DNA of 64,000 nucleotides. It comes from Undaria pinnatifida. Taxonomy: Eukaryota > Sar > Phaeophyceae > Laminariales > Alariaceae. Under the pieces are notes generated by a model. It worked only from the letters and a program-made list of their open reading frames with translations, was not told the origin of the DNA and searched no databases. Shown here piece by piece: positions 16,001 through 50,012 of the stretch. The translations under genes and the position numbers were made by a program. The DNA lies in assembly GCA_012845835.1 (NCBI GenBank), contig JABAKD010000026.1, positions 9,868,699-9,932,698 on the forward strand, written 5' to 3'. Position 1 is the first letter of the stretch. Each line of letters begins with the position of its first letter.

Positions 16001-17075
16001 GTGGACCGCCACACGATACCATGGGCGGGGGGGAGAGCGGGGGTAGCTATCCCGTCGCTAGGGCCGTCGGGGCGGGTGCCGCTTGGCCTTGTGTCGCGCC
16101 TCGCCACGGGGGAGGATGTCGACGCAGATCTTCGCGAGATGCGCCCCTCTCACCTGCGGCCCGACATGCCCCACTGCCACGCTAAGGACCTCCGGGTACC
16201 CAAGACGTTTAAGGAGGCACGTGACGGTGAGCATGGTGTACAGTTCATGGACGCGGTTAAGCGTGAAGTGTTCGATTTTCTTGAAGCAGGGGCGTTCGAA
16301 ATTGTTGACGAGTGGCAACGAATAGACAACGTGATCAGTAGCAAGCTCATTTTTGGTTGGAAGGTTGATCAATTTGTTTGGCTTACGAAAGCGAAGGCGA
16401 GACTGGTAACTAGGGGTGACATGCAGAGAGAGTACGTTGACTCTGGAGATTTGTACGCGCCTACTGTTGCTTCGTCCAGTGTCCGTTTGTTGGCTGCGTT
16501 GGCGTGTAAGCATGACTTAGACTTGTGCCATTACGATATAGACCAGGCTTTTATGAGGGCAGATTTTGCCAGCGATGACTTCATGTGCGATTGCCAGATG
16601 GTTGTGATTCGTTGTCAGGGAAGGTTGTGAAGCTGAGCAAGAGTCTTTATGGTTTGAGACTGGCATCCAGGCAGTGGTATACATTACTGAGGAGGTGTCT
16701 CTTGGCTTTGGGGGTTGTGCAGTGCTTGGCTGATTCGTGTGTTTTTCGTTTGGTTGAAGGGGGGAAGTAGCGATGCACCTAGTGGTGCATGTTGATGGTA
16801 TTTTTGACGTGGAAAAGAAGGAAAGGTGTGATCAGTTTATTAAGGATCTCGGACGTCTCGTTCCATTTAAGTCATTGGGCGAGCTCAAGTGGTACTCGGG
16901 GTGCTATTACGAGAGAGACAGGGAGGCAGGGAGGTTGACTGTTTTGCAACAGACGTGCACGAAAGAATTGGGAGAGAAGTATGGTGTGGAGTGGGGCAAC
17001 GCTATCCCGATTCCAACAACTTGGAGGCTTTGGAATGTTGATGTTGACGAGCCGAATGTCCTGCTTTCTTTCTGA
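16001..17075 (+). pseudogene. Copia reverse transcriptase region (fossil)
   Basis: RVT_2-type reverse transcriptase: the FKEARDGEHGVQFMDAVKREV entry, KARLVTRGDMQ, APTVASSSVRLLAALA, DIDQAFMRADF, LSKSLYGLRLASRQWY and the position of the YVDD box (here HVDG) appear in the correct order. This is the pattern of Copia RT, not Gypsy or LINE RT. The region belongs to a broken copy and would not give a working enzyme as it stands. Confidence 0.85.
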
Positions 17076-23236: not shown

Positions 23237-24706
23237 GCATTGGTCGTGCGCCGATTGCAAGAACTCAGACGAGCTAGGAGAATCACTCCGTTCATGTTAT
23301 TCGTCGATCTCCAGATGTCATAGACCTCCGTCGACCGAAAGCGACTGTGGGCGGTGCTATCACGTTTCCGCGTATCCGAGACGACTTTGATCATTGTTGG
23401 CCAGTGCCACGAAGACATGCAAGCTCGCGTGCGTACGGACGACGGTAAACACTATGAATGGCATGACATCACTCAGGGGTTGCGGCAAGGATGTGTACAG
23501 TCGCCGCTTTTGCTTTTTCACAATACGTTTCGCCGCACAACGATACATTCCGTTCCGCCAAGTTTCAGTGAGGACCCAGACATTTTAAGGGACTTCGTGC
23601 ACCTCGACGAGGACCTCGGGGAGGGCGGGTTGGAGGTTGAGCCACTGACATGTGTACGGAGGTCAATCTGTGGTATGCTGTACGCCGACGATGCCGGCAT
23701 TGTGTTCAATTCAACGGAAAACCTTGCGAAGGCGAGTTTCATTGTGACTGTTTTCGAATCAGCATATCTCACCGTGCCCGAAACGAAAACAGAGACAATG
23801 CTTCTCCTCACACTCAACAAGGTCCTCCCTGCCCCACCGCTCGTTGTCGAAGCGGCAGGCCAGAAATATATATGCGGACGATGCATTTGCTGTACCTGGG
23901 CCGGGTCTTATCAACGCAAGCGCCGTCATCTTTCAATAAACTAACGACGGATCCGACTCGCGTAGGCATGCTACGATCGTTTCAAGCGCCTGCTACGGAC
24001 CGAGGTGATGGGCACCCTGCTGTACGGGCGTGTGGCTCAGAATCTCGGCCAGGGGTACTTCGTTGACCCACCAACGGCACTCTTAAACGTCCTCCTAACG
24101 GGTATTGGCTTCCAACGCCGACAACGCGCCGACCACCAAATATCGACCGCCAAGACCGTCAGCACAATGTGAGAGCGTTGAGACGACCACCCGCGAAAGC
24201 CACTCCCTCTTTGCGGGAGGCGTACGAAAGACGACAAACGAACGGCTGACCCATCGCGTGATGTTCGGGACGATGGGTTTTGTTGAGACAACCCGGGACC
24301 AGGCCGACCAGAAAGGAACTGGGCCCAATTTCCAGCAGACGCTTTTAAAGCATTCAAAGCCACCGAGGGGCCAACGGACAACCCCTCTTTGCTGTCAGGA
24401 GTAAAGAGTGTGCTAGGTTTGAGGGCGGCTAACAAGCGTGGAAACGGGTACCGGGGGGTTGTCGACGCGGCGGGCCGCTTCATGATGAAATCGCATATGA
24501 CCGAGGCGGATAAGAGCTGCCTAATCCACGCAACAGTGGACACCAAAAATAGCAACAAGGGGAAACAGGATGGGGGGCGTACCGATACAGCTGTGGATGA
24601 ACGCCGAATCGAAATGGTACATGGTGTGGCAAGCTACCTGTTTGACGGATATGTGGAGCGTGTTCAAGTACCTTTGTATAGCCCTAAACCCTTTAGTGAA
24701 CGGTAG
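23237..24706 (+). mobile_element. 5'-truncated LINE (reverse transcriptase tail)
   Basis: A non-LTR retrotransposon fragment. It opens in mid-RT with VVRRLQELRRARRITPFML followed by FVDLQ (the F.DL..A.D box) and VDRKRLWAVL. It continues with DITQGLRQGCVQSPLLLF and the catalytic box GMLYADDAGIV in the frame 23354-23944. Past that, in other frames, lie LLYGRVAQNLGQGYF, CESVETTTRESHSLFAG (a decayed RKRR-LFAGF box), NERLTHRVMFG, and a C-terminal part at 24389-24706 ending near GGRTDTAVDERRIEM. The 5' half (endonuclease and start of RT) is missing, as is usual for LINE insertions. Reading-frame shifts divide it into about four pieces, so it is inactive. Confidence 0.85.
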
Positions 24707-31251: not shown

Positions 31252-32286
31252 TTACCTTCTTAGAGCTTCTGACCCAAAGTCTGCCCCCTCCCCTCCCGCT
31301 CTTACGTAAACCATGAACGCCAGAGACTTCCACCTCCCCGCTCTTTGGATCTGAATGTCCGAAGCACCTTGTGCCGCCAACTGCGTAGCCCCACCAATCC
31401 TACCTGAGTGTAAGGCGTACTGCGTCGGGTCTCTCCCCAAACTACTGACCATCCGCCTCAAGGCCTTCGTCGCTACCGCACGCGAGATAACCTTTCACCC
31501 GCTTGCCGTGCGTGTCTGCATGAGTGGTGCTGACCCGCTCAATTCGGGGTGAAGGTCTAGCAGGTCCAGAATTATTTCCAGGGCCCCGTAACCACTCACA
31601 CCCCTCGTCGCTTGATCCTTCCCTACCGTTACGCTCGTCCTGGTAACCGTTTCTCCCAAACTCTTGTTGTCTGACTTGGACGCGCGGAACGTCACTTCTA
31701 CTCTGTCCGCTATGCGCCTGTCATCCCACGCCAGTTGCGACGCTCCCGCAAAAAAAACCAAGTCCCTTCTCGTCAGACGAAAGTCCGGGTGTACCAGGCC
31801 ATTACCAAACGCCCAAATTTCCGAGGCTCTGCACAATAGATGAAACGACAAAGCGAGACCGCACCACACTACCCACCCTTCGGTCTCTACACCGGCCACG
31901 CACCCCCTCCCCTTGGTTAGCAGTTCCCACGACAGAGGTTTCCTTACCTTGGGGCGTACCTCCGACTTACCGTGTGCTCTGTCGATTCCTTTCCCTACTG
32001 CTGTCACCATGCAGTGTGAAGTGGGCAATTCCCAACCCTCAAACATTCTGTGGAAATACTTGATCGCTGTTAGGTAACCCCGAACCGTCTGACTCTGGTT
32101 TTTGAAGCTAAAGCATCGCAACGCCATGAATTTCGTCAGCTCTGTAACTGCCGCATCGACTCCGTCTCTTTCTAACAGCCACGCCCCCTTCCCTTCTATC
32201 GCCCTGAGACGGAACCACGTTTTCCATTGATTCCAGTACACCTTTTGCGTGCTTCCCCCCACCGAGGCCAACGCTAGGGTCTCCAC
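31252..32286 (-). CDS. tyrosine recombinase region of the PAT/Ngaro-like element
   Basis: Phage-type tyrosine recombinase. The N-terminal part has SAM-like text (YWNQWKTWFRLRAIEGKG and FKNQSQTVRGYLTAIKYF). The catalytic part includes a core Arg neighbourhood in LLCRASEIW and the box HSGRIGGATQLAAQGASDIQ, followed by RAGRWKSLAFMVYVR with the candidate nucleophile Tyr. In living relatives this enzyme inserts a circular cDNA. It lies last in the coding order, as is normal for PAT/Ngaro. Part of an element with about one break. Confidence 0.85.
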
Positions 32287-32359
32287 CAGTCTTTTCGCCT
32301 CGTCCTCATTCCCTCCCTCTCCCGCGTATTATCCTGCTCGGAGGGGTTTGAGCAAGTGG

Positions 32360-34201
32360 TCATGATTCTGCTGTTCGTGTCGTCGCATCCCATACATCGT
32401 CATCCATGTACTCTGTGGGAAAATTGGGCTGTAGAATTGTCTTGAAAAATCCGCACCCGCTCTGACCTATACTTTGCTCTCTCCATTCCCCGTGTACGAG
32501 GGGCTGCAGGTTGCGCGCGATCTGTTCTTTTGGCCATCTTGAAATGCCGTCAGCCACCACATTCTGCACACCGGGAATATGTTTTGCGTCATGGGTCCAA
32601 CCGCTCGTGATTTCCAGTCTACCCAGTAATCTCATGGCTAGGGCCGCACGTCTGTTACGTGATCCTCCACATCTGTTAATCCACGACACTGCTGCCACGT
32701 TGTCTCCTCTCAACAGTACTGGATCTCCTGGCGTTTTCGGCCTATCTTTCAAAAGGACTTGTGTCACGTACGCTGTCATTACCATGCCACACAGTTCGAG
32801 CAAGTTGATCGTTATTGCGTCCTCGCCCTTTGTCACCACCTGTTTTCGCAGAAGCTCGGACAGCCGGTGGTTCAGATCGTATCTCCAATACACCTGGAGC
32901 TCTGGGCAAAACCCCCCGACTGCAGTAAAGCTTGCGTCTGAGTAGTATCGTCGTAAGGCAGTTCGTTGTACGTGTGCGTAAAAAGGTGCTCCAAGCGACT
33001 CCCCGGCGTTAACCAAGTTGTGGTCGATTGCCCACTTCCAGAAGGCAATATCATTGTGGAACTCCCAGCCCAGTTTAACTACTCTCCGCGTCCGTTTTTT
33101 CGACTTAGCTATTTTGTGAAGATCGGTCAAACGTAAAAGCTGCCAGACAAAGTATCTTCCCGCTCTGACGACATACGTGAGGTTCCATAATTTCCCGGCC
33201 ATGCTGAGAACGGCCTGCGCGCCTGCATGCGTTTTGCTACTCGGCCACTCAAGTTCTAGGAGTAGTCTAATCGCTTCTATCATTTCCTTAGTGACAGAGA
33301 TTCGCATGGTGTGGGTGCTGATGGTAAAACCGAGAGCATCTACAGTTGAATTCCAATTCGTGCTCTTCTTCGGGGCAAGAATTGGAGTTTCACCTTTTTC
33401 GCCTGGTCCAAATAATCTTACGTTATCTGATGCGAGAGAAGCCGACGCTATGAGGGCTGTCTGATCTGAAGCGTTGAGCTGCACGCTGGCCATAATATAA
33501 TCATCAACGTACACGGACGTTAGAAACGGTTCGCTTGGCCCGCCCCTTTTCGGGGAGTTAACTCTTACTCCGGTCGGAATCCGGGTTGGACTTCCGTTCT
33601 CCCACGGCTTCACGATTTTGACGTGTGACATCATGGCCTTTCCTTCTGGTAGGATAACGGCGCTATTTACCGTAGTGTTACAGTGGGCGTGTTCGGCCGC
33701 TGCGGCCAAGAGGCCCCAGTACCCTGGCAAGGCTGCCCATCCAAAGGTGAGTCTGAAATCCGATACCAACACATCGTCTACCACGTAACAAAAGTTCCGT
33801 GCCTGGTGCGGTGTAATTCTAACATTCCTGAAAGCGTCAGTTACGTCTGCCTTTGCCAACAGTATACGACAATTGGGGAACCTTATTCGAAGGTGTGTTA
33901 GAGCCTTTAGAAGTGCGGGGAGGGCGTCACCACAGAGACATTTTGGTACCTCTTCAGTTTGTGTGTCTCTGTTCAGTCCCCCCTTCTCCCCCCTGGCCGC
34001 TCCGGCCTCAAACGAGTAGTCGTTAATGATTCTGACCTTGTGTGTGACCACCGCCCCCAGAGGTGCCACCCGCAGCCCTTTTAAAGAGGCAGCGGATTCT
34101 CTTTCAAACACGAGCACTCGATTTTGCCTAATATCTTCATACAGTTTTGTCCAAACTAGGTCCATGTGTTCTGCCACGGTGCCGTGATTTCCATACTGCA
34201 T
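32360..34201 (-). CDS. reverse transcriptase/RNase H of the PAT/Ngaro-like element
   Basis: Open frame of 613 codons. RT landmarks in order: VRIINDYSFEA, LLAKADVTDAFRNVRI, FGWAALPGYWG, the catalytic box SVYVDDYIMA, and LGFTISTHTMRISVTKE. RNase H follows with YYSDASFTAVGGF, INLLELCGMVMTAY and LLRGDNVAAVSWINRCGG, then HIPGVQNVVADGISRWP. The VDD form and the RH pattern are typical of DIRS-order elements. I see no separate methyltransferase-type domain, which favours PAT/Ngaro over DIRS1 proper. Confidence 0.9.
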   Translation of the reverse strand: MQYGNHGTVAEHMDLVWTKLYEDIRQNRVLVFERESAASLKGLRVAPLGAVVTHKVRIINDYSFEAGAARGEKGGLNRDTQTEEVPKCLCGDALPALLKALTHLRIRFPNCRILLAKADVTDAFRNVRITPHQARNFCYVVDDVLVSDFRLTFGWAALPGYWGLLAAAAEHAHCNTTVNSAVILPEGKAMMSHVKIVKPWENGSPTRIPTGVRVNSPKRGGPSEPFLTSVYVDDYIMASVQLNASDQTALIASASLASDNVRLFGPGEKGETPILAPKKSTNWNSTVDALGFTISTHTMRISVTKEMIEAIRLLLELEWPSSKTHAGAQAVLSMAGKLWNLTYVVRAGRYFVWQLLRLTDLHKIAKSKKRTRRVVKLGWEFHNDIAFWKWAIDHNLVNAGESLGAPFYAHVQRTALRRYYSDASFTAVGGFCPELQVYWRYDLNHRLSELLRKQVVTKGEDAITINLLELCGMVMTAYVTQVLLKDRPKTPGDPVLLRGDNVAAVSWINRCGGSRNRRAALAMRLLGRLEITSGWTHDAKHIPGVQNVVADGISRWPKEQIARNLQPLVHGEWREQSIGQSGCGFFKTILQPNFPTEYMDDDVWDATTRTAES

Positions 34202-34275
34202 TGCTCTGGTTGGGTCGAGGTCCGTGGCCGATGTTTTTACCGGGACGCCATTCTTGATAATGTCTACGAGCTCCG

Positions 34276-35385
34276 TTATTGCTGGGAAGCTCTTAATAAG
34301 CCCAAATAGTGTTCCACTTGGCTGAGAGAGAAAGGAGGTGACACCAAGGTGCCTCCGATTCCAACAGCCACGTCTCCCACACTACCATCGCGTACATGTA
34401 ACAGCTCTGTGCCTATTTCTGCCATCTCTCGAATGACTCGTTTCGTTCTAGCAAGGTTGCGGTTTTCGGCGGCCATCGACACCTTTGTTTGATTCCATCT
34501 TCCGTTCAGCTCAGCGATTTTTGCTTTTCTGCTGTTGCCATTGTTGGTTACATTGCATGTCTGAACTTGAGTGTTGTACGATTCTTTTCCATCTAAAGGG
34601 GCTACTTGTCGCCCCGACTCGGGTACATATTTTTCTTTTACGTACTCGCTTAAGTTGGTTGCCTTTGAGAACTCTCGCCAGCCTTGCGCGGACTGGACAC
34701 GACCAACGTCAGGCAACTGGCCATGACTCTGGAATTTATTTTCCGCCCGGGACTCATGATCCGGCAACTGGTCGTGACCATGCCGCCCCTGCGGTGCTTT
34801 TGAGTACTCTCGCAAGCCTTGCGCCGACTGGGCACGACCAAGGCCAGGCAACTGGCCATGACCTTGGTAACGCTGTCTAGATTTACTGCTATCCTGTTCC
34901 GTCTCGGAACGATCAAAAGCAGGCAACTGGCCATGCCCACAGTAAATCTGTCTTGCGTTATTGTTTTTAGACAGTCCCAACTGGGGACCGTCACGGACAG
35001 GCGACTGGCCATGCCAACAGTAATTATGCACCGTGTGATTGATTTTTTTTTCGAAACTACCAGTGTTCGGCAACTCACCTTTCTCCTGGCAACGCTGTGT
35101 GACGCTACCGCCACTCTGTTCCGGCTCGTTACCAACCGAGTCCGGCAACTGACAACCATCATTTCTAGCGTTGCTACGTTTCTTACCGCTATGTTGGTCA
35201 GCAAAAGTTGTCCTACTGTCAAGAACCCACTCGGCACATTTACGGTCACACGACGCACCCACGAACACCGCTTGCGACACCGATCCCGGTTGGGGCGCGC
35301 CAGTCAGTCCCACCGACTTACTGGTGTCCACGAACGGCGAAACCCCACCCTCCGCATTGCGCCACTTGCCGTCCGGCCCCGCCAT
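34276..35385 (-). CDS. second gag-region frame with HGQLP repeats
   Basis: Open frame of 369 codons between the gag-like frame and RT. The middle carries about seven degenerate repeats of a (G/S)HGQLP-like motif (CGHGQLPAFDRSE, QGHGQLPGLGRAQ, HGHDQLPDHES, QSHGQLPDVGRVQ) spaced 20-30 residues apart. The C-terminal part (AAENRNLARTKRVIREMAEIGTEL) is probably helical. Its stop lies just upstream of the RT frame. I know no enzyme with this repeat. It may be a structural or nucleic-acid-binding part of gag, or a leader to the polyprotein. Confidence 0.6.
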   Translation of the reverse strand: MAGPDGKWRNAEGGVSPFVDTSKSVGLTGAPQPGSVSQAVFVGASCDRKCAEWVLDSRTTFADQHSGKKRSNARNDGCQLPDSVGNEPEQSGGSVTQRCQEKGELPNTGSFEKKINHTVHNYCWHGQSPVRDGPQLGLSKNNNARQIYCGHGQLPAFDRSETEQDSSKSRQRYQGHGQLPGLGRAQSAQGLREYSKAPQGRHGHDQLPDHESRAENKFQSHGQLPDVGRVQSAQGWREFSKATNLSEYVKEKYVPESGRQVAPLDGKESYNTQVQTCNVTNNGNSRKAKIAELNGRWNQTKVSMAAENRNLARTKRVIREMAEIGTELLHVRDGSVGDVAVGIGGTLVSPPFSLSQVEHYLGLLRASQQ

Positions 35386-35529
35386 CAGGCGAGGCCTGCC
35401 CTGTCAATTACCACCACCTCTCCCCGCCCCGGGTCCCTGCCTGCCCTGAGCTCCGCCACCTCTCCCCTGGTTCTGCCCGTGCGAGACGCTGAACCTCGCG
35501 ACGGCCGCCGGAGGCTGCTGCTGTTGCTG

Positions 35530-35578
<49 letters not shown>

Positions 35579-36770
35579 TGTTGCTGTCGCTGTTGCTGCT
35601 GCAGCTGCTGTTGCTGCTGCAGCTGCTGTGGCTGCTGCTGGTGTGCTGCCGCTGGTACCTCGGCGGCGGCGGCGGTGGTGGCGGGCAGGGCAATCCCGGG
35701 GCCCCCGTACCGTCCTGAACGAACGGGCCATGCGAGTATTGACAGTTGGTTCTGTTGCACTGTTGCCTCCGCCACGCGAAATGGCAAATCCCTTCCGGCG
35801 TCCGCATCTGCTGCAGGCCCGAAATAAAAGGCCAACCCGCCCGCGGTCCCCCGTCCGTACGCGGCCGCGTAGCTGGTGGGAGAATCCCTCCTGTGTTCGC
35901 CTTTCTCTTGACCGGTTTTGCTGCCGCCGTCGAGCCGCCCAGCCTGGGCACTTCCAGTGATGTGTCTATCCGACCCAGCAAACTGCAACTTCCCCGCGAT
36001 GTCAGTTCGCGGAGCATCGTGAAGGCTGGGGCATTTATCGCGGCGCACTCCCCTTCCGGCGGGGCGGAGTTGGGAAAGGCAGTCTTCACCGGAACCGCGG
36101 CGTCTAAAATCAGTCCGAAAAAGTCGTTGATGTCTCTGTTGGCCGCGAAAATCACTCGCTCGCGAACTTGCTGCTGCCTTGGCAGTAGTGTGTTGTAATG
36201 CGTGTTCATGTACGCGGTGAGAGTCTTGGACATTTTCTGCCATTCCCCGATCAGCACGTCCCGCCTGCCCTGCGACACGCCCCCTGCGGACTCCGCTGCT
36301 CCCTGTTGGGTCACTTTCACCAGAACTTCGACGAACGTTTGGAAGTGCACCTCTGCGGCTCGGGGCACTGCCGCGGTTCCCGGCTCGACCGGAGGTAAAA
36401 ACGCGCCTATGTCGATGTTTGCTATCGGGGGAGTAATCATGTCGATGAGCCGCTTGTTAGGGTCGACGATGAACCTGAGCACATGAGACAAATCGCTAGA
36501 CGACAATGGCAGCACAAACAGACCACCTCGGAGCACAAACATCGATGCTGCTCCTGCTTCCTGCCACATCCTGATTTTTCGCTTGGTGGAGTCCGCCGAG
36601 ATGGTACGGGCTTCTACACTGCTGCCGTGCTCCATGCTCCCAAATTGGTAACTGCGGCTCGATCTGCTGAAGCTGCTGTGCTGCGGGCTGCTGCTGTGCT
36701 GCGGGCTCAGCCGGGGGTGCTGGTTGGAGGTGTTGCTGCTGCAGGAGTTGCTGCTGTACTGCGGGCGCAC
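35385..36770 (-). CDS. gag-like protein of the PAT/Ngaro-like element
   Basis: Open frame of up to 461 codons. A start at the Met near 36636 (MEHGSSVEARTISADSTKRK) would skip a low-complexity head. It contains a helical middle (FQTFVEVLVKVTQQGAAESA; VIFAANRDINDFFGLILDA), then a zinc-binding signature ICHFAWRRQQCNRTNCQYSH (C-X8-C-X4-C-X3-H, CCCH type). A Ser/Asn-rich run follows, read from the CAG/CTG triplet tract at 35515-35640. A CCCH finger after a helical body fits a nucleic-acid-packaging gag protein. It overlaps the next frame by a few bases, which suggests coupled translation or read-through. Confidence 0.7.
35515..35640. repeat. CTG/CAG triplet tract in the gag-like region
   Basis: About 125 bases of CTG with TTG variants. 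A second, less pure tract lies at 36650-36880. Depending on frame they encode Gln, Ser or Ala runs on the minus strand. Confidence 0.95.
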
Positions 36771-36891
36771 CCGGGGGTGCTGCTAGGTGTTGTTGCTGTT
36801 GCTGAACGAGAGGCGCCTGCTGCTGCTGCTGCGGCTGTTGTGCTGGTTGCTGCTGCGCTGGCTGTTGTTGCAAGACTTTTGTGAGCAGCAA
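36496..36891 (-). other. Gln/Pro/Ala-rich open frame upstream of gag
   Basis: 131 codons, very rich in Gln (LQQQPAQQQPAQQPQQQQQ and similar). It overlaps the head of the gag-like frame in another phase. It may be a leader part of gag or just a product of the triplet tract. Confidence 0.4.
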
Positions 36892-37388: not shown

Positions 37389-37439
37389 ATTTTCAACGTG
37401 ATATATGATATTTATAGATGCAGTACAGTGGGGGTCACT

Positions 37440-37600
37440 CTGCAGTGCGGGTATGTGCCAGGGGATTTCGCCCGCACTGTAGCGGGCATCCGCACCATAT
37501 AAATAAGCGCCTAAATAGTGCCCATACCCGCACTATTGGGGTTCCCCAATAGTACGGGTATGCGCCTCCCCAATAGGGCGGGTATGCGCACTATTCGCGA
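37440..37600. repeat. subterminal ATAGTGCGGGT motif cluster, left
   Basis: At least five copies of CCCGCACTAT, ATAGTGCGGGT or a close variant in both orientations. They mirror a similar cluster at 39985-40130. Possibly transposase-binding sites (inference). Confidence 0.65.
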
Positions 37601-38217
37601 TATCATTAGGATAAAAAGTCGGACGTAGGCAACAACGACGGTTATGAAGGTGGCACTGTAGTGGATGCAACGAGCCAAGGGTTGAATAGATATCAGTGCC
37701 GCCACGCGGATAGAAGCCCGAGGCCGCTCAATGGTAGGAAGACAACATGCAGGTTGGCGCAAATACAGCTGTGCAGTACTGGTGTACTGCGCAGCGGTGA
37801 AAACCAAACCCTGGACAGCCGAGAGAATAGTTGGTCCACGAAATGTTACGCAATAAACGCTGAGTCTCCCAACAGGTGTGTCTGTGCACGCAGCCCGATG
37901 GTTGTTGTTTCATTATGCATCGACGGTTCCGTGGATATTGGAAAAACAATCACAAGGGAACACCCTACAATGAAAGCTACAGAAAATTATCCCAACATTC
38001 CAAAAGCGAACACGTGAGTCCACCTACACAAAGAGACACCTTTTCAACAAATCCCAGACATCCACAGACAAAAAGCAGGGGGGAACACGTTCAACAAAAA
38101 GAGCACAGGCACAATAATGACCCAGGCTAATGTCCTTCAACCACGCTCTCCCTCAGTTTCTCGAAGAACACCCCACACTACACAATGCCGCCCACGTTAT
38201 TGGGGTTAACGTGAAGT

Positions 38218-39061
38218 TACCGTAACTGACACAAGATAACACACCCCGGTGATAACGTTTTGGGATTTGATACCATTGCTACCGGATGTGGTATCCTGTG
38301 GGAGGAATGATATCTTGTGTAACCCGTGTGATAAAGTGCAGCTCGCAGGGGGCCCAAGGGGGGTGTGATAAACCAGGGGGTGTGATAGAACGTCCGAAAA
38401 CCCACAAGGTGTGTTTGGAGGTGTGATAAATGAGGAGGGGTGATGAAAAGGGGTGGTGATAGCACATCCGAACACCCACACGGTGTGTTTGGGGGTGTGA
38501 TAACAGTTGAACAGCTGCTGCCGCACACTTGAAGGGGTGTGGTATGCCTGCACGAACACTTGCAGCTGCCCCGCACTCCTGCTGTAGGTACCTACCTGTG
38601 ATACCCGGTTGTGGTAAAACAAAGGGGCCCAACCCGAGGTGACGAAACTCCTTAGCACATGATCTCGGTGATGACTCAACCCCCTCAACGCCGAAGAAAG
38701 TTTCAAACAAAATACGGGCTTGGATTGGAGATTACAAAATAAAATATACCCGAATCGAAGGTACCCCGCCCGATATTATACGAGGCAGTGGCTGCGCCAT
38801 CCGTCCTCCCCCCACTCAAAAGTGGGCTGCTGCTATCTACCTTGCTATCGGTACGACCGAAAAAGAGTTACGCAGAGACACCACGACCAAAAATCACAAA
38901 CCGCAAATATACACTACGATGTCACCGGGGTGTGTTATGTTTTGTACCCCGGGTGGTAAATCGATGGTTTGTAAGAAACGTCGAAAATTATCACCGGGGT
39001 GTCGCATCTTGTGGGGGTTGTGATTTCGTGTGTACTGTGATATCTTGTGTCAGTTACGGTA
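38218..39061. mobile_element. nested MITE with GGTGTGATA repeats, TA target
   Basis: An 840-bp element (38220-39059) with terminal inverted repeats CCGTAACTGACACAAGATA, flanked by TA. A second inverted block, CCCCGGTGATAA, follows, offset by ~36 bp between the ends. The left half has a run of GGTGTGATA, GGGTGTGATAA and similar short repeats. No conserved coding frame is visible; the 166-codon minus frame simply reads the repeats. Confidence 0.75.
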
Positions 39062-39293
39062 TTACGAAAAAAAACACCAAGAAGCAAACCCCGAAAAAAA
39101 GCGACTCATTCAACACATGTGCAGCAAAACGGCTCTCATTGGATGTACGCGTCAAAATACGCCCGGACATCAGTCTGGCAAGATGGCTTTCATGCATGCG
39201 CTTCGATCATCAGCACCCGTGCCCTCTTGAGCTAGTAGATGGCCTCGTCCAAACCACACCCTGCCGCGTAGTTTTCTAGGAGGACGAAGTGTT

Positions 39294-39723
39294 TTAGGAA
39301 AGTTCCGCGTGAGCCAGTGGCTCAGCACGCCCCCCTCTGATGTTTCCGTCCTCGTCATCGTCCTCCTCCTCCTCGCTATCCGAAGACTCCCACCCCTCCA
39401 CCGACAAGCCCTTCAAGGCCGCCGTCACGCCATCCGCCTGATCCAACCGCTGCTCCTCGACGACATATTTCTGGTCTTCGATTGATGCATACGTCTTGGC
39501 CGATTGATGGAGGTTTGAGAGAACCTCCATCTTCTGGTCCAGGCTCAACCTCGTGCGCGGTGCACTTCGGTTCGCCTTTTTTGCATCCCACCGCTTTCGT
39601 GCGTTGTGGGATGCAGCCCGCTTCTTGCGCCTTGCGCTTTCCCGTGGCAGCAGTAGCGGCCTGTTGAGAAGACAAGCATGTATGACAGATGCGATTCATT
39701 TCGCTCTCGCCTTCCTCCTCCAC
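39294..39723 (-). pseudogene. possible transposase C-terminal remnant
   Basis: Two overlapping minus frames (39294-39548 and 39376-39723). One ends in a strongly acidic tract (SSDSEEEEDDDEDGN), and the other has KRKAQEAGC and paired Cys (ICHTCLSS). Acidic tails are common in pogo-type transposases, but no catalytic core is seen. The assignment is weak and rests mainly on location inside the TA-target element. Confidence 0.25.
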
Positions 39724-39984
39724 CTCGCCTCATATGCTGTGCAGTCTGCCGCCGCATCTTCGTCGGCATTGGTGACGGTCAGGGGCTTTAGGTGTGCAGG
39801 TGCTGAGATCACAGAGTTCGCCTGCTGCACATGGCATCGTGCGCCTCTGCCGTGCTGCTCTCGTGGCTAGTAGGTTTATCCCGCTGCTATGCGGTAGGGT
39901 AGGTTTGTGTATGTATCTCGGGGACTCGTCTATGGGTTTGACCGCGAATCTAGGCTGTTATGACGTCAGACCCGCACTATAGAG

Positions 39985-40130
39985 GGTTCTAATAGCGACC
40001 AAACCCGCACTATACAGGCGTGCCTCGAATAGTGCGACACCCGCACTATTGAGGGGTCTAAGTTGTCCCAAGCGATTTCACCCACATTATACCGGGAAAC
40101 CACACTATATAACCCGCACTATAGAGGGAC
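39985..40130. repeat. subterminal ACCCGCACTAT motif cluster, right
   Basis: Copies near 39987, 40015, 40048 and 40112 of ACCCGCACTAT followed by AGAGGG, ACAGG or TGAGGGG. Mirror of the left cluster. Confidence 0.75.
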
Positions 40131-40138
40131 CCCCACTG

Positions 40139-40470
40139 TATAGTCTATAGCATCCAGGAGTTTCGGCAATAATATCTCAGGTATACGATACACAGCAATT
40201 TGCAGGCAAGTCGTATCCAGATACCTGTTACATGTAATACAAGGGCTCCGGATGGGCGCCGGCATTCGCCGGCGCCCATGCTTCGGGTAGGGCAGGGCAG
40301 CACTTCGACAACTCAAGGTGAAGCTGTCCGATTTGGCATGCATTGAACTTTAAAGTAATGCCAAGAGTTTAATACGAACATGGGATCACGAAAGTCATTT
40401 TTTGACAGAAGAAAAGCGTAATATTATATAACAAAGAAGGCAAGGATATGCAACGACTGGATAAATATAT
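40139..40470 (+). repeat. outer repeat, continued, with a perfect hairpin
   Basis: 40140-40235 aligns with 60545-60640 (ATCTYAGGTATA.SATACACAGCA). At 40254-40277 there is a perfect 10-bp stem GGGCGCCGGC with a 4-base loop. The rest up to the Gypsy LTR holds nothing recognisable. Confidence 0.6.
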
Positions 40471-40890
40471 ATTTTAGACACCCGTACCCAAGTCTCCAAT
40501 CTCTTGTCCCAACTCTCTCACCGCTTCTGAGTTTTTTTCCTCCATGTCTACCTTCGGGCTGATTCCTCCCGTCTTCTTGTTGGAACAGCTGCCTGCAAAC
40601 ACCAGTCTCGTCTCACGCAGTCCTCTTCCAAGCGCTCGTACAATATAACAGATGTTGTGATGAAACCTCCAAATGTGCCTCACGGTAACGTTCGCTGTAC
40701 TCAAGCTCGGTTCGCAGTCACTCACACACGTGTCAGATCAAGTTCATGTTCCTTTTTCCCTCGTTTGGTTTTGTTTTTTTATGGACTGAGGCCGTGAGCG
40801 GCACGCTTTCTAGACTGATCGGCGTAATATAGACCTAGGCAGCATTCCGCCACGGGGTTTCATGTGACGTCATGTCAATCCGCCGCAACA
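40471..40890 (-). repeat. Gypsy 3' LTR
   Basis: In element orientation it begins TGTTGCGGCGGATTGACATG and ends GGGTGTCTAAAAT. It pairs with 49595-50012 over its full length. Confidence 0.9.
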
Positions 40891-41664
40891 CCCCCCCCAG
40901 CACGGCTTCCCAGAAGTACCGTGCTAACCGGGCTGCGGATACACTGGAGTAAGAGTGAGAGCCATTTCCCACACTTAGTCGTGTCTCGATTACCATAAGG
41001 CTCGAATAAGTGGCGTCTAACATTTTCATGGATTGGCGTCTCTTAGGGGGTAGGGACCCTGGGCCTCGCGCTTTCTCGCATTAGGTCCCAAATCGGTACT
41101 GCTGGACTTGCTAGTATTTCTCATCAAGCGCACCAGCTGAAAGCCTCTTATCCACCACTTCCCGGCTTTTACCATTAACCCGGGTAGGCCGAGGCTTTGA
41201 TCCTCCTCGCTGGTCGATCTTCGGCCTACGTCTTCTCCCTTTCTCCATCAGCCTCCACTTCACGTTCCACGTTTACAAGAACCGGATTGCAAATTTCCGG
41301 TCCTCCTACCTTTCAGGATTTCATGTTCGTTGAGCTCCTCCCAATCTCTGCCTGCGTACCGAACCCGCCAGTACGGTTACTTGTAGTCGAAGACCTTTGA
41401 AAAGTGACGCTTCTTGTTTCCTCCAGCGTCCGCGATTTCCCTCTAGATCACGGTTCCCACGGGGTGTTGTTTCAACGCTTGTTCGCGGTCGATCCCATCT
41501 CTTTCCTTCCGCGTTAGCGTCGAAGTTGGTGTTGCCCGGCACTCCGCTCCGTGATACGTTTCCCACAGCGCGTGGAAAACGTCCAGCTGTAAAGGGGTGA
41601 AACTGTCTCGTGCCTCCTCTTCGGACAGCTACTGCGACTCTGTGCCATCCACGAATCGTCCCTT
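40891..41664 (-). other. Gypsy 3' region between integrase and LTR
   Basis: No recognised domain. It begins (element orientation) just after the integrase frame and ends with a G-rich tract against the LTR. Confidence 0.6.
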
Positions 41665-42950
41665 TTATCGCCACCTCCAAGCGTTGCCTTGACCCATCAC
41701 AGCCTTTCTGTCTATTAGGGTGTACATAGGCGACGCTAAAATCGACGGCTCCGCTTGTCCGAAGTCAACTCCCCATGCCAGGTGAGCAAATTCGTTTTCG
41801 AAGTCGTGACGGAGGTCGTCCGGACGTAAGTGAAACGTCTTGATCTTCGATGCTGACGCCCGTCGTCGGCGAACCCGTCGCCCATTCATCGTGACGATGT
41901 AGCTGAGTCCTGGTAAGACAACTGCAGTCACCTCCCAAGGGCCGGTCCAGTGCTCGTGGGCTATTTTATTATGTATCCGTTCCCTGGCCATCACAGACTT
42001 CGCCTCCTTCACCAGCACCTTATCTCCGACAACAACAGGAGTTCCCACCGAGGTCCGACCGATTTTAACATTCCGACTCTCACGACGTTTCTGCCTGTCT
42101 TCATGTCTTTTCGATAGAGCCATCCGTACATCCCGTACCTCCTTGTACGCTTGACGTTTGTCGGCCACGTAACTGTGCATCCCGCCTCTAAAATCACCAC
42201 CATCTCTCTCAGGGTGCGTATCATCAAGTTGCGTGCATGCATCACGACCGAAGAAAAGACGGAAGGGAGTTGGCTTCCCCGGTAAGCGCAGGTCCGGCGT
42301 GGTATGATGGATCCACAGTGCCGGTTGTACGTACTCGTCCCATCTGCGAGGCCAGGTCTTGCACAGTTCTCCTAGTGCTTCGTGTAGCCACCCCCCCAGT
42401 CTCTCCACCGTCCCCTGTGCACGTGGATGATCGGCAGGCCCATAGGCGATGGTCACGTACAACCACTTACATAAGTGTTGCATCACCTCTGCCGTGAACT
42501 CGGATCCCGGATCACTGCGAACATACAGCGGTAGCCCAAAAGTAAGCATCACTTCGAGCAGTTTCCTCGCTACTCCGATTGCTTCTTTCGTAGGGATTGG
42601 AAAGGCGAACAATAACTTGCTGGCTTTGTCGACTTCTACCGTAGAACTTTGTTGCCTGCGTCTGACTTTACCCCCATGTTCTGGATGTCGACTTCGAGAA
42701 CTTCCCCGGGTCATAGAAACCTCGACGGTAGCATGGCAACCCGTTGACTCGCTGACCGCTTGCGACGTCTGCACCCACACAAGAGGACGTGGTTTCTAAC
42801 GTCCTTTATGAAGGTGGGCCAGCAGTACCGATGACAACTCAAGGCTGTTGTTCTCGCCGTCCCCGGATGCCCATAGGTGCTGTGCGCCAGCGCTATAATC
42901 ACTGGAACGAGATCGGGGAACTGAAAGTCGTGGGATCTTTCCCCGAGGTG
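41665..42950 (-). pseudogene. Gypsy integrase region (fossil)
   Basis: The H2C2 zinc-binding head lies at about 42740-42890 (LAHSTYGHPGTART, then WPTFIKDVRNHVLLCGC). The rve core follows: a first-Asp neighbourhood in TVEVDKASKLLFAFPIPT, YVRSDPGSEFTAEVMQHL for the second Asp, and HPRAQGTVERLGGWLHEAL for the Glu. The C-terminal part contains an SH3/GPY-like module (GDKVLVKEAKSV and HWTGPWEVTAVVLPGLSYIV). This order is typical of Gypsy integrase. No chromodomain is seen at its end. Confidence 0.85.
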
Positions 42951-42959
42951 CTACCCACA

Positions 42960-43380
42960 AGAGGCCGTTATCATCCATCACATATTCGCCACCTCCTGAT
43001 CCTCGGTTTCCCGCTTCCTGGATTTCTTTCCGAATATTGCCAAGTACCATATCTTTGCACTGCCTCTGCATCAGCTGTGGCAAATCCTGGAGAATAGCTG
43101 TCACTCTTTCCAGCATGGATGGCTGTGACCGCTGGGGTCCCTTGGCCTCTTTCCCTGATCCGCTTGAACGGCTGCTGGTGTCCTTCGGTGATTCCTCCAA
43201 CGGATTACGTTGCCGTTTCGGTCTCGGGATGGGCTTTCTCTGTCCCCTGCGTTTGCGTGGGCGATCAACTTCCACTGGTAGTTCGGTAGTAGTGACCATC
43301 TGCGCCGTTGCATTCTCCACCTCCTCCTCCTCAGGTAACGGCGGTTCTGCCTCCCAGACAACCTCCGGTGCCTGGGAAGT
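42960..43380 (-). other. basic linker between methyltransferase and integrase
   Basis: Minus frames encode a Lys/Arg-rich stretch (RPRKRRGQRKPIPRPKRQRN) and a short helical piece (MLERVTAILQDLPQLMQRQ). Such a basic region may act in nuclear entry or nucleic-acid binding (inference). It leads to YVMDDNGLLWVAPRGK, the usual lead-in to Gypsy integrase. Confidence 0.5.
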
Positions 43381-43383
43381 GGC

Positions 43384-44400
43384 CTATGCCTGCGATCTCG
43401 TGACCGCTCTTGTCACCTCAAAGGCTTTTGATGCTGCGAGGTAATCCTCAAACACCATGCAGGCCAATCCTTCTAGTTCCGCGACCTTTGGTATCGGTTT
43501 TCCCAGTAAGCCTTGACCAGCTAGTTGAACTAATACTGCTCGTATCATTGGAGGAGACGTAAAATCTGCGATGACGTTTGCCGCGGCGCTTTTGCTGACC
43601 GTCTGCGGGATCACGCAGTGTTCCTGCCCGGTGGTGATTATGGCGTAGCCGTTGGAGTGCAACTCTTCGGGTTCTTCAAGGCGTGCCGCATCCGCTGCGT
43701 GTGCGATATACCCTTCGGTTGGCTTTTCCCCCATGATGTGAGCACGGTTCAAATAGATGATGGGTTCGTTGAACCAGAAAATCGCTCGCCCTCCGTTACC
43801 TCTCTTTAGGAAGTATGCGCCTCTTCGTCATAAAAGTTTCCCTAATTCCTGAACTGGTTGCTTTACCTTCTCCAACCTCCGCTTCCAAACAGCTAACTTC
43901 CCTTTTGTGGCAAGGCCTCCCTTGATTCCTACCACGAAAGTCCGTTGCCTCCTCCACGGAATCCCTACTTGGCTCGCTAGTATCTCCGCATTGTCCACGA
44001 TGTATGACTCTCGTTGCAAAGCGGGGAGAACCTCGTCGTTCCATTCCGTCGTTTGCAGAAGGTTGGCCAAACATTCGAGTATGAAAACTCGCGCGTCTGA
44101 AGCGATTGGGCTAAGCTACTCGCTCCGGATATTCCCTCCTTCTCTCGTGTCCCTTCAAACCTCCTGCAGGCATCACCGACCACCACGTCTGGTTTCACCT
44201 CTCTCAACATGGTTAGGCATTCATGCGACCCTGTTGTCACCCTAAGTAGCTTCGCACCGTTGTCCAGTCCGTTTGCTCTGATGCATTCCAGTGTTCTCCA
44301 GTCCTGGTCTACTGCTCCTCTGACCGTTAGCAATTCCTCTGATGCAAGGATGCTGCCTCGCCCCCCACAGTCGAGCATGACCACCCTGGAAGCTCCGGTG
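43384..44400 (-). pseudogene. cytosine-5 DNA methyltransferase region inside the Gypsy element (fossil)
   Basis: About 1 kb, the length of a C5-methyltransferase catalytic domain. Landmarks in order are: a motif I-like SAM-binding start (VVMLDCGGRGS); a motif II/III-like AVDQDWRTLECIRAN; a motif IV-like KPDVVVGDACRRF; a long gap; then VDNAEILASQVGIPWRRQRT + FVVGI, which matches the motif IX pattern (GVPQ.R.R.F..G); and a motif X-like segment, VIADFTSPPMIRAVLVQLAG. This spacing and order fit the DNA_methylase family. In living enzymes it methylates cytosine C5 using S-adenosylmethionine. It looks degraded here. Retroelements that captured such enzymes have been described in dinoflagellates and a charophyte alga. 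Confidence 0.8.
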
Positions 44401-44429
44401 CGATGACAATTTGGGCCTGTTGAGTATCT

Positions 44430-46075
44430 GCCTCGGATGGGTCTGCGATTGTGAGTGCGCCGGCTGCAAGTACTGCAAGATTTTGAGTACTAGATCCGTC
44501 CACATCTTCTACTCCTACGGTTTCGAGGTGTACGCCGTCGAGCGCTGGCCCCTGTGATCCTTTGTAAATGTTTGGCAGCGACTCGTCTCTTGGAAAAAAG
44601 TCGTCCAAATCTTCGATCACGATGCTCTTGTTCGGTAACCGCGACATGGCGTCTGGGAGCTGATGTTGTGTCGCCGGTCTCCACTTCAAGGTTATGTCGT
44701 GCTCCGTCAACCTCAGAGCCCAGCGGTGATATTTCGGTGTGAGAGGTTGGCGTTTGAAGAGCCAAGTCAACGCCGAACAGTCCGTGATGAGCGTGAACGG
44801 TCGCCCCCAAAGATAGGGTTGGAATTTGCTCACTGCCCACATGACCGATATGCATTCACGGTCTGTTGCTGACCTTTTGGAGTCTCCTCTCGACCATCGT
44901 TTGCTGCCGTACGCGATCACGTTCTCCATTCCTTCGATGCATTGTGTTAGCACCGCTCCTGCTCCTATCTCTCTGGTATCGGTGGACAGCGAGAACGGTT
45001 CTGTCCACACCGGCAGGGCTAGGATTGGAGGTGACGTCAAAGCCTCGATAAGCGCATTAAAAACTTTGTTCTTCTCTTCTCTCCGCGGGACTTTCTCTTT
45101 CTTCGCTCTCTTGGTTCCGAACCTTGGATCTCTCAGCAAGTCGGAAATGGGCGCCACAACTGTGCTATACTGGGGTGCGAATTGCCGTAAGTACCTTGTC
45201 ATGCCCAGCAACACTCGCACTTCCTCCACCGTGTTCGGCCTTGACAGCTGCGTGATAGAATCGACCTTTCTCGGGGCCGGCCTGGTACCAAGTCTATCCA
45301 CGATTATGCTGACGAACTCCATGACCGACTGACAGAAATGCGATTTCTGAAGATTCACGGTTAATCGTCCTTGCCGTAGACACTCTAACGTTTCTCGCAG
45401 CAGTCCCCATTGATCTTCAAGGGTTTCGACGGGATGGCGATGTCGTCTAACCAGTTCCTAATTCCCCTATCCTTTACGGTTAACAGTGGCCTCCAACGTA
45501 GTTGGCAAACGCCGAAGGCACTGTTTTCAACCCGAAGCCGCAGCGAACGTATTCGTACAGCTTTCCGTCCGCGTCTCGAAATGCCGTCAGGTGTCGATCG
45601 TCCTCATGGATCTCGAGCTGTAATAATCCTGAATCTAAATCGATGCTGAAGAAACACTTCGACCCTTCCATCTCATCCATAATATGCTGCAAGTCCCCAA
45701 GTCCACCACTCTGTGATTTGAGAAGGGCATTGATACCTCGAAAATCCTACACGCCCCGCACTGTCCCATCTTTCTTGCGAACCGTTGAACAATTGGCGGC
45801 CCACTCGGAAGTTGATTCCCGAATGAATCCATTCTTCAGGAGTTTCACCGCCTTAGTCTGAAGCATCTCGCGCTGTTCCGGGCTGTAGTGTCGAATGGGC
45901 GCCACGTATGGCCTGACGTTGGAATCTTTGAGCTCCAGTCGCATGGGCACTCCTTTGCACGCTGGTACGCTTTGGAGCTGACCGAGAACACGTCGATGTA
46001 CTCGTTGAGAATGCCCATCAATGTGTCCTTTTCGCTCGGACTGAGCTGTCCGAAGTTGGCCTCTCCCAGGTCCAC
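44430..46075 (-). pseudogene. Gypsy reverse transcriptase/RNase H region (fossil)
   Basis: RT landmarks: LLKNGFIRESTSEWAAN, VRKKDGTVRGV, CFFSIDLDSGLLQLEIHE, GFGLKTVPSAFANY, and FCQSVMEFVSIIVDRLGTRP with VRVLLGMTRYLRQFAPQYS. RNase H: PFSLSTDTREIGAGAVLTQ, SATDRECISVMWAVSKFQPY, FTLITDCSALTWLF and QHQLPDAMSRLP. The order and spacing are characteristic of Ty3/Gypsy pol. The methyltransferase region starts right after RNase H. Confidence 0.9.
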
Positions 46076-46499
46076 CTTGGGGGCTTCGCTCGGAATCTCT
46101 GCGATTTCACCCCTTTTTGTTGCATTGCTCCGGTGGCCTCCCTTTGACTTCTTTTTTGATCCCCTCGTCCTGTTTGGGGCTTGTCGGTTCCTCCGACACC
46201 GGGTTTATGAGTGACTTCATGCGTTCCCGATCGTAATTTTTAACAGCGTAAACAGTCGCAATCACCAGCCCCCCCTGGATCTTCACATTATCCTGGGTAA
46301 CAATCGACAACTTACATTGAAGTGGTTTACGCGGGAACCACCACAGTGCCCCCCTTGGCACTCATAGATCCACTCCTAGATTAAGATCGTAGAGGTTAGT
46401 TGGTTCTACCACTACGAGCTGCTGTACTTGAGGTTGAGGGCCTTTGACAAAGGCGTCTACCTGGATACTGGTATCACCTTGAACCTCTACGTCTTCCGC

Positions 46500-47090
46500 A
46501 ATGCGTAATTTCCAGTGCAGAGTGCCTTCGTCCTCCTAAACAGAGCTTCCTAACTCCATAATCCCCCCCGGGATCTTCGGTTCCTCTAATTCTTCCGGTT
46601 CTCGCTCGTCTGTCGATGGCTTCACCCCGCAATAGTGGTCGCATTCGGCACACATCGCTCCTGCTGCGGCCTCTCCGACCTCCGTCGGGGCGAATGGTAC
46701 CCACGAAATGGATGGTGTCGGCCGGAAACCCTCCTCACCATCGAAACTGATGATACTTCCATTGTCCGTCATGAACGCGACTCCAAGCACCATCGCATAC
46801 GGAAGTCCCTTCACCACCCCGAACTTCTCACGGAGGATTTGGTCGATCGATGCAAAGACTAGTGGTAGCAAGCGCGAGCCTACCACTTCCATCGGGGGTA
46901 CGGCGCTATTCTTTGGGTTTGCTGCGCGGAGTAGGCCGTCTCCCGTTGGATTTATCAGCGATATTCCCCAACCATCACGTTCTTCAATGAGTTCGATGAA
47001 CTGCCATGATACATAGTTTCCCCCACCCGCCTCAGTATCCACCAGCACCGCAATCGGAAGTCGCCGGTTCGAGCTCGTTGCATGCCACAA
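46500..47090 (-). pseudogene. Gypsy aspartic protease region (fossil)
   Basis: A retropepsin-like start appears in PIAVLVDTEAGGGNYVSWQF (the D-(S/T)-G-A neighbourhood), followed by ILREKFGVVKGLPYAMVLGVAFM, matching the second half of retropepsins (the 'ILG.-F' part). The Glu/Pro-rich tail leads toward RT. Confidence 0.6.
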
Positions 47091-47119
47091 CTTTGCATGA
47101 ACCCAACCTGTGACGTCTT

Positions 47120-47960
47120 AGTTTGCAGTGCTCCTATTTTCGATCGGTGAGAGGAATTCTTTGAACCCTGGCTGCTCTTGACCAGTGAACCCTGACTGCC
47201 GTTGGCCAGCTGGCTGTTGTTTGATCAGTGAATCCTGGCTGCTGTTGGCCAGTGAACCCTGGCTGCTGTTGACCAGCAAACCCTGGCTGCTGTTGGTCAG
47301 CAAACCCTGGCTGTTGTTGGCCAGCGACCTTGGCGCCATCGGAGGTTCCCATCGCGATCTAGGGTTCGGCGGTTCTCTTCTTGGGATTGTCTGTGGACCC
47401 CATCGTCCTCTGATTTCAAACGGTGACGGTAGGGAGGGAGCGGACATCTGATTGTACCCGCCTCCCGTTCCTACATGATTTGCCGGTCCTGCTGCCCCTT
47501 ATTCTGCACCACCCTGTGGACCCCATCCAACCGGGCCGCTCGATGGTGGGCCTCCATCCTGGCCGCCCTGAGACGGGCCTCCCTGTGGTGGGCCTTCCAT
47601 CGGGTGAGGTGCACCAAAAGGTCCCCAAAAAGGTACCCCTCTTCCTGCCATGTTGTTTTCTTCAATCACTCTTCCCCCCCCTCCCCGGGACGCCGCCCGT
47701 TTCCCTTTGATGAAACCTCTCGCTTTGCTGTCGGGTAGAGTAAGATGAACTGGACGAAGTTGTGCAGTACACGACGGACTCGACGACGCTGTGTTGTATC
47801 CGACGAATGGAGCTGTGCAGTAGGAGCTGTGCAGTATGCGACGGACTCGATGAGGCTGCGTGGTATACCATGTACTCGACGCAGCTGCGTCGTATAAGGT
47901 GAAGATGGTATCCAACGATGGCAGGCTAGGGAGACGAGTGGAGTCCAGGGGATCGATGGA
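47120..47960 (-). pseudogene. Gypsy gag-like region, repeat-rich (fossil)
   Basis: Gly/Pro/Gln-rich. About six (D/G)QQQPGF(A/T) repeats are read from 47170-47330, and a GPPQGGPSQGGQDGGPP stretch lies near 47560. No CCHC knuckle was found by eye. Position and composition suggest the gag end of the element. Confidence 0.45.
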
Positions 47961-48215
47961 GTCTAGTAGCACCAAGTTTTCCGCATCAAACGGGTATAAA
48001 CAGTGGCTTGGGACAAGGTGGGTGGGAAAGAAAGTTGGTGAAAGGTTTCGAGTACATGAATATTTACCTTCCTGGTTTGTTGAAAGTTGTCCTCTTATCA
48101 TAATATACATGAAATCCTTCGGAAATGCTGCCCTTCGAAAGCTGGAGTCTTCACCAACAGAATAACGTATGGAATCCCTTAGGTATCCAAGACACATCAA
48201 TCCATTTGTAGGCAT

Positions 48216-49594
48216 TAGCTACATCTGTCATTGTTGTACATCCTTCATGCACATTTTTTGAACGAATTTGGAACAGAAGAATAAATCATTTTGTAAACAT
48301 CTATCGAAGTATAAGCGTCCATACGTAACACAACAATCGATGAAGTTTCAAGGTCTACATATATTCATACATAGCTATTAGTAGTAAATTACTACGCGCC
48401 TTGAAAGGACTTGTATAGTATCTCTCCATGTAGCTCCACTGTATGCAGTAGTTCCCATGTCGGGTATAGCTCCACTGGCATGCGAAATGTTTTTTTGTTC
48501 TCATTAATTAATATTAATGCGTTCTTACAATCCTTACAATTCCAACGTACTTATCTCACTTCCCCTCCATTAATGCATTATTTACAATCCTCAAGATGCC
48601 AACCTACTTATCAAGCTTCCCCCTTTCCCATTCCAATAAGATAATGTTCCTAAACCATGTTTCCAATTCCGGTAAGTTCTTAACATGACAAAGAGCAGCT
48701 ATAGAAATGCTTAGATTCCCCATATAAGATTAAAAACCAGAACCAGTTTGCAGTATCACTACTCTTGAAACACATGTGCGAACGACCTCGCAGTACCTAT
48801 ACAACCTGCGAAGACACAAAATCCCCATCACAAAGGCCAAAACCAAATTGCTTGCAAAACAGACCCTTGTCTTATGGGTGTCTCACAGCATGCAACAAGT
48901 GTAGATCAACAAACAGACCCGAACTCATTTTCAACCCGTATGATGAACGCAAGCACGTTCCTACTGTGGCTTATCACGTATGAACTTACTCGTCATTGAA
49001 AGCAAAAATGCAAGCTTTGCGGAGCAATTTACAATTAATGCATACCAATGTTTCTTCTGCATCGCATACAAAAGAAACAGTGAGTCAGTCAAGGCGGGGA
49101 GAATCTTGTTTGCTCTCTGTATATACTGTTGTGCGTAGCATGGACTGAGTGACTCCTCATCATGTATAAACTATCAAGCGTCTCATTCCTCGCCTCCACT
49201 GTCTAGAAATGACGACCACTGATTCTCATCACTCATGCGGCCTGCTGTACCCCTGCTTCTATTTCTGCGGTGTCTGCCTGTGGTTATCCTGCAACGTGTG
49301 GGGTTTGTGATACTGCTTCAAGCGAGATTTTCCTACACGAGCAAGATTTTTACCATTATAATATACAGTTGAACTGCCATGAAATTCTATTCAACATCCT
49401 GTAAAATTGATTCATGTTTAGACTACTCCTTTCTTTCCACACTCTATTTTATGCATTCTTTCACCAAAAATGGCCTGGCATGCTGCTGTACTTCTACCTG
49501 CGCATTTACGACCGTACTTCTACCTGCGTCAAGCGAGACTATCAACCCACACGGATCCCAGCTAAAGCCCTATATAACGAACGGAAGAAGAGCT
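48216..49594 (-). other. Gypsy 5' leader region, no gene seen
   Basis: AT-rich DNA between the gag-like region and the 5' LTR. It contains small repeats of TTACAATCC. No open frame of interest. At ~1.4 kb it is long for a leader, so it may hide another insertion. Confidence 0.5.
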
Positions 49595-50012
49595 ATTTTA
49601 GACACCCGTACCCAAGTCTCCAATCCCTTGTCATAACTCTCTCACCGCTTCTAGTTATTTTCCTCCATGTCTACCTTAAGGCTGATTCCTTCCGTCTGCT
49701 TGTTGGAACAGCTGCCTGCAAACACCAGTCTCGTCTCACGAAGTCCTCTTCCAAGCGCTCGTACAATATAACAAGTGTCCGGATGAAACCTCCAATAATG
49801 CCTCACGGTAACGTTCGCTGTACTCAAGCTCGGTTCGCAGTCACTCACACTCGTGTCAGATCAAGTTCATGTTCTTTTTCCCTCGTTTGGTTTTGTTTGT
49901 TTTGGGACTGAGGCCGTGAGCGACACGCTTTCTAGACTAATCGGCGTTATACATATCTAGGCAGCATTCCGCCACGGGGTTCCATGTGACGTCATGTCAA
50001 TCCGCCGCAACA
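49595..50012 (-). repeat. Gypsy 5' LTR
   Basis: Partner of 40471-40890, sharing CGCTCGTACAATATAACA, GTAACGTTCGCTGTACTC and GCCACGGGGTTYCATGTGACG. Differences are mostly single bases and short indels. Confidence 0.9.

Follow-up and report, generated by a model that had tools for sequence, protein, structure and literature searches.

A methyltransferase-related domain in the Pol region of a Ty3/Gypsy retrotransposon family with a decayed copy in Undaria pinnatifida

Retrotransposons with captured methyltransferases

Few retrotransposons are known to carry a cytosine methyltransferase, and the sections cited here of the 2018 paper by de Mendoza et al. place them in dinoflagellates and one charophyte (PMC5890265). 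Those sections assign the Symbiodinium elements to the LINE and DIRS types (SymbioLINE-Dnmt and SymbioDIRS-Dnmt3), with enzymes of the Dnmt3 or an orphan lineage, and the element of Klebsormidium nitens, KnitGypsy-Dnmt3, is a Gypsy with Dnmt3 in Pol and a Ka/Ks under 0.2. The abstract of that paper attributes de novo CG methylation to the retrotransposon DNMTs. It is worth adding that PMC12344493, which cites this work, in the relevant passage attributes Dnmt3, for streptophytes and dinoflagellates, to DIRS elements and to LTR elements of the Copia type, where PMC5890265 itself has Gypsy instead of Copia. Algal Gypsy elements with other captured domains are also described: the Ectocarpus families carry a chromodomain, Tudor or NADAR domains, and the cited part of PMC12477816 reports no C5 methyltransferase in them, although it does report a Sola1 transposon with an enzyme of N4/N6 type.

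Here we describe a Ty3/Gypsy element in a stretch of 64,000 nucleotides from the brown alga Undaria pinnatifida (hereafter the window), in which a domain descended from a cytosine-5 (C5) DNA methyltransferase lies between RNase H and integrase. It resembles KnitGypsy-Dnmt3, as far as the cited description of the latter goes, in being an LTR Gypsy family of several copies whose Pol reading frame includes a C5 methyltransferase domain. The Klebsormidium element differs in having a Dnmt3 domain with its key residues retained, a low Ka/Ks and DIRS-like repeats, whereas the present family has a far more altered domain and ordinary direct LTRs. The Symbiodinium elements share with it that they are retrotransposons bearing C5 methyltransferases. 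The first-pass annotation of this DNA had named Symbiodinium and Klebsormidium as precedents, and both are borne out by the text of PMC5890265; however, the Klebsormidium element is already a Gypsy, so that a methyltransferase on a Gypsy element is in itself no novelty. The present family may plausibly represent an independent capture. Among the literature matches listed, a set with most subscription journals outside it, the titles and abstract openings showed no Gypsy element carrying a C5 methyltransferase of bacterial type.

Structure of the element and location of the domain

The element is on the minus strand and is decayed, its Pol being interrupted by stops and frameshifts. The features of the window are collected in Table 1.

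Table 1. Features of the window, with those of the Gypsy element given first and in its own 5' to 3' order.
Feature	Position in window	Strand	Basis or remark
Ty3/Gypsy element	40452..50012	-	9.6 kb
5' LTR	49576..50012	-	alignment to 3' LTR; first letters TGTTG
gag end, Gln-rich tandem repeats, then putative aspartic protease-like stretch	46720..47670	-	read by eye, three frames
Reverse transcriptase, interrupted by stops and frameshifts	45483..45959	-	PF00078 5.8e-6 (26.6 bits, cut-off 29.6; one frame piece, stop written X)
RNase H	44702..45079	-	PF17917 7.6e-27, PF17919 2.3e-24
C5 methyltransferase-related domain (about 300 residues, limits approximate)	43432..44384	-	PF00145 and C5 profile matches; tblastn with relative
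C5 profile match 2	43980..44489	-	profile 3-88
C5 profile match 1	43831..44115	-	profile 106-164
Motif IV Cys codon	44166..44168	-	hand-derived from frames
Frameshift in domain	near 44103..44112	-	domain split over two frames
Motif VI Glu codon	44074..44076	-	hand-derived from frames
In-frame stop in domain (one)	43828..43830	-	
Basic linker, methyltransferase-related domain to integrase	43050..43431	-	P0010 and P0008 extend through linker
Integrase zinc-binding region (H2C2), frameshifted	42777..43050	-	tblastn with P0010
Integrase core (rve)	42433..42639	-	PF00665 4.3e-4, below cut-off
3' LTR	40452..40890	-	alignment to 5' LTR; G-rich polypurine tract before it on the minus strand
Copia-type element	11767..16630	+	gag PF14223 3e-6, rve 2.3e-9, RVT_2 1.5e-10
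Reverse transcriptase fragment	23324..23941	+	RVT_1 3.9e-5, below cut-off
Long open frames	31495..36782	-	673, 465, 375 and 277 aa; no Pfam domain reaching cut-off
CAG/CTG-type repeats	35.5-36.9 kb		accompany the long open frames
Direct and inverted repeats	37424..40140		around ACCCGCACTAT

The two LTRs are direct repeats that agree at 402 of 439 aligned positions (92%), with 2 gaps; the target duplication is ambiguous, in TATA-rich surroundings. With direct LTRs and the order reverse transcriptase, RNase H, integrase, this is a Ty3/Gypsy LTR retrotransposon, an assignment in which RNase H is far above its cut-off and the reverse transcriptase and integrase core are each below their own. A gag end and an aspartic protease-like stretch are suggested by eye, with no Pfam match to gag or protease in the two pieces tried from that region. 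The zinc-binding region is recognised through the relative P0010, whose residues 375-423 match PF17921 in Pfam (1.2e-12). P0010 is a cluster of 133 members and may stem partly from transcript or library data; its last residues resemble what we take to be translated sequencing adapter.

The first-pass annotation had placed a C5 methyltransferase in the segment between RNase H and integrase, to be recognised by PF00145. When three pieces of the window segment were compared with this model, the middle piece did match (1.8e-4), its 21.5 bits falling just below the curated cut-off of 22, and the first and third pieces gave nothing up to an E-value of 10. A C5 profile was also built from 23 ordinary C5 methyltransferases and run, with filters off, against the six-frame translation of the window, in all 1,979 fragments of at least 20 aa. 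It found exactly two matches at E <=1, both in the segment and co-linear (1.2e-5 for match 1 and 0.0029 for match 2), these E-values being relative to a null model and the profile rows having been picked in part for likeness to the relative P0001.

P0001 is an uninterrupted relative of the window's domain, 323 aa long, and was compared with several collections. PADLOC gave a significant match to the Type II methyltransferase model PDLC03270 (1.7e-12), with residues 54-265 aligned on 54-266 of 309. The match to PF00145 in Pfam was again marginal (1.5e-4, 21.8 bits, cut-off 22), that to TIGR00675 in NCBIfam was far under its cut-off (0.0023), and a methyltransferase PHROG was matched at 4e-4. 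In tblastn against plasmids the best E-values were 2e-6 and 6e-5, and 29 of the 30 records listed (out of 50) are annotated C5 methyltransferases, the other having no annotation at that place. Against phages the best E-value was 1, which is uninformative on its own, and no relatives were found in the viral and prokaryotic contigs scanned with P0001, P0023 and an LTR pattern.

The C5 profile scores P0001 at 59.3 bits, compared to at most 4.2 bits across 2,000 shuffles, and two other profiles score the whole protein at 47.2 and 41.9 bits, the top shuffles being 9.2 and 14.5 (3,000 each). The signal is in the catalytic half, which alone scores 37.3 and 43.0 bits with two profiles (shuffles at most 6.7, 3,000 each). 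The C-terminal half, which should hold the target recognition region and motifs IX and X, gives by itself 5.5 bits or nothing, and its 3,000 shuffles do as well. The support thus extends over motifs I to VIII, whereas motifs IX and X, which the first-pass annotation had also read, are seen only within an end-to-end alignment. The window scan and the PADLOC match together uphold the placement of the domain, and judged from its sequence we conclude that this part of the Gypsy Pol is a predicted PF00145-type domain of C5 methyltransferase descent; we make no claim that it is a full enzymatic member of that class.

Structural comparisons were less helpful. Among PDB chains up to an E-value of 10, neither P0001 alone nor a family-only profile found a methyltransferase; the top match was a sporulation response regulator (1.2 for P0001, 0.018 for the family-only profile). 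A fold predicted from family members only had a pLDDT of 40.7 and was useless. A second, from an alignment that included ordinary methyltransferases, reached a pLDDT of 48.2, moderate in the catalytic half and poor in the remainder; the 50 structural matches listed for it are C5 methyltransferases, a result that is conditioned on the input alignment and so not independent.

The family and its sequence motifs

Public data contain many relatives of this Ty3/Gypsy family, of which the window has a single copy that is old and broken. Among 4,106 candidates, 37 protein clusters match the window segment wholly or partly at E <=0.01, many of them fragments. They are 74-92% identical to it within the aligned part, which covers no more than 14-16% of the query in three cases. 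A search with P0002 gave 19 of 6,252 at E <=1, all within the 37 and including P0002 itself. Nothing intermediate between the family and ordinary methyltransferases was found in the length ranges covered, which do not take in Pol proteins of full length. By sequence pattern, the RNase H end is present in 8 of the 37 and the H2C2 region in 4. Pfam at E <=0.1 found RNase H (PF17917) in 5/37, H2C2 in 3/37 and PF00145 in 9/37, with no member above the PF00145 cut-off among the matches listed; of six members compared with Pfam, three matched PF00145. The position of a methyltransferase-related domain between RNase H and integrase is a family trait of these Gypsy relatives.

Ordinary C5 methyltransferases have the motifs PPC (IV, with the catalytic Cys), ENV (VI), QRRxR (VIII) and GNxVP (X). 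In the family, the Cys of motif IV is kept in 13 of the 17 members with a letter there (the exceptions being Arg in three and Trp in one), the Glu of motif VI in 15 of 16, and the two arginines of motif VIII in 18 of 18 (Arg149) and 17 of 18 (Arg151). The residues around them are altered. Alignment with bacterial enzymes shows PPC(Q) replaced by DAC(R), one residue shorter and with the prolines lost, ENV by ECL, and QRRxR by WRRKR. The GNxVP of motif X is absent, P0001 having ADFTSPP and no GN at a place where the alignment is weak on its own. These four changes are common to the members seen.

The host genome was also searched with PF00145 (511,146,479 bases in 68 contigs). At E <=0.001 it has two matching places, both on the same contig and about 0.27-0.28 Mb before the start of the window, in a search that misses the window's own element and ignores introns, and is therefore neither a count of the family nor evidence that further such enzymes are missing from the host. 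The two places (L016 1312-2068 on the minus strand and L017 415-1932 on the plus strand, on C33 near 9.584 and 9.595 Mb) are about 11 kb apart and hold fragments of C5 methyltransferases in which canonical motifs occur, GGFPCQ among them. They might be the remains of an inserted virus.

Origin and possible role of the domain

Taken as a whole, the reading that a methyltransferase-derived domain is present family-wide in the Gypsy Pol is in our view probable; we infer within it a single capture, a bacterial-type source and an action on cDNA. One capture would predate the spread of the Gypsy family. Its source would, tentatively, be a bacterial-type enzyme, acquired directly or via a virus, rather than Dnmt3. 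Bacterial Type II enzymes gave the best alignment among the sequences compared, a set without Dnmt3. In PADLOC, P0001 scores 45 bits against PDLC03270, compared with 27 against the second-best model, but this collection consists solely of anti-phage defence models, so that the ranking discriminates among bacterial classes and is silent about Dnmt3. PDLC03270 is also the top model for a HindV-type E. coli plasmid enzyme, a Calothrix enzyme and P0152, but does not rank first for the enzymes of Acinetobacter and Rhizobium. P0001 aligns with P0152 end to end at 24% identity; given that its C-terminal half does no better than shuffles, the affinity to HindV is a lead only. The HindV-type enzymes differ from the domain in being stand-alone, the E. 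coli and Citrobacter plasmid genes adjoining a HindVP endonuclease gene. In a tree of 26 sequences, again without Dnmt3, the stem of the family measures 2.94 changes per column and attaches outside the HindV group (100/99). A topology that unites the family with this group withstands the AU test (p-AU 0.288), and the place of the family in this tree is not fixed.

Against this background it has to be considered whether the domain is instead a eukaryotic Dnmt3, or another DNMT, blurred by fast evolution. The same long stem, which keeps the family from being placed, would fit such a history, and the comparisons contained no Dnmt3 sequence or Dnmt3-only model. A mixed profile of P0001, P0003 and four bacterial enzymes nevertheless finds HaeIII (2.4e-48) far above 4onq (1.4e-5) and 4onj (1.2e-4), a ranking on which the bacterial rows weigh; the last two are presumably plant DRM, a Dnmt3 relative. 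The PADLOC ranking, within its limits, also points to a bacterial class. The closest published architecture, as PMC5890265 describes it, is precisely a Gypsy Pol with Dnmt3; even so, we consider a Dnmt3 origin unlikely. It is hardly credible that the segment is a second RNase H or an unrelated spacer with a chance resemblance to the motifs. Extra domains are known at such a position in Pol, and Tat/Athila elements have a second RNase H, but no RNase H match was found in the segment pieces or in P0001, and Pfam, NCBIfam, PHROGs, PADLOC and the plasmid tblastn agree on a methyltransferase. The Pfam results, the window scan and the shuffles rule out both the chance match and the second RNase H.

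If the domain is a captured methyltransferase, it would ride with reverse transcriptase and integrase on new cDNA and act there, and that it still methylates the cDNA or the target DNA is close to an even call. The CpG observed/expected ratio of the element is 0.95, compared with 1.01 for the window, so that the element bears no sign of CpG decay; neither this nor the altered motifs argue for the self-methylation proposed in the first-pass annotation. Both observations would suit a domain that is now without catalysis and serves Pol by binding DNA or steering the integrase, although the nucleophile Cys, the Glu of motif VI and the two arginines of motif VIII are mostly kept, and we regard such a module as a tentative possibility. 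The domain may also be a passenger without function, tolerated and retained because the integrase must be read through it. Its conservation is a little below that of RNase H: in pairwise comparisons of up to 8 members the identity is 83% for RNase H (643/776), 80% for the linker (2454/3054) and 78% for the domain (2711/3466). At sites shared with 20 ordinary enzymes the variability within the family is lower (0.084 vs 0.102) but not significantly so (p 0.10), and hence no present selection on the domain can be inferred. The retention of the key residues in most members with a letter there speaks against a relic, which we think rather improbable. The most detailed form of the captured-methyltransferase reading is itself doubtful: that a methyltransferase of bacterial restriction-modification type entered the Gypsy Pol once, was reshaped family-wide in a host with few other C5 methyltransferases, and is now a Pol module marking or gripping the element's own DNA before integration.

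As an addition to the few retrotransposons of this kind, a family that has many relatives and whose domain is strongly reshaped indicates that such captures recur. The family also allows the purpose of the enzyme to be tested, by asking whether selection acts on the domain as it does on RNase H, and whether the DNA of the element carries methyl marks.
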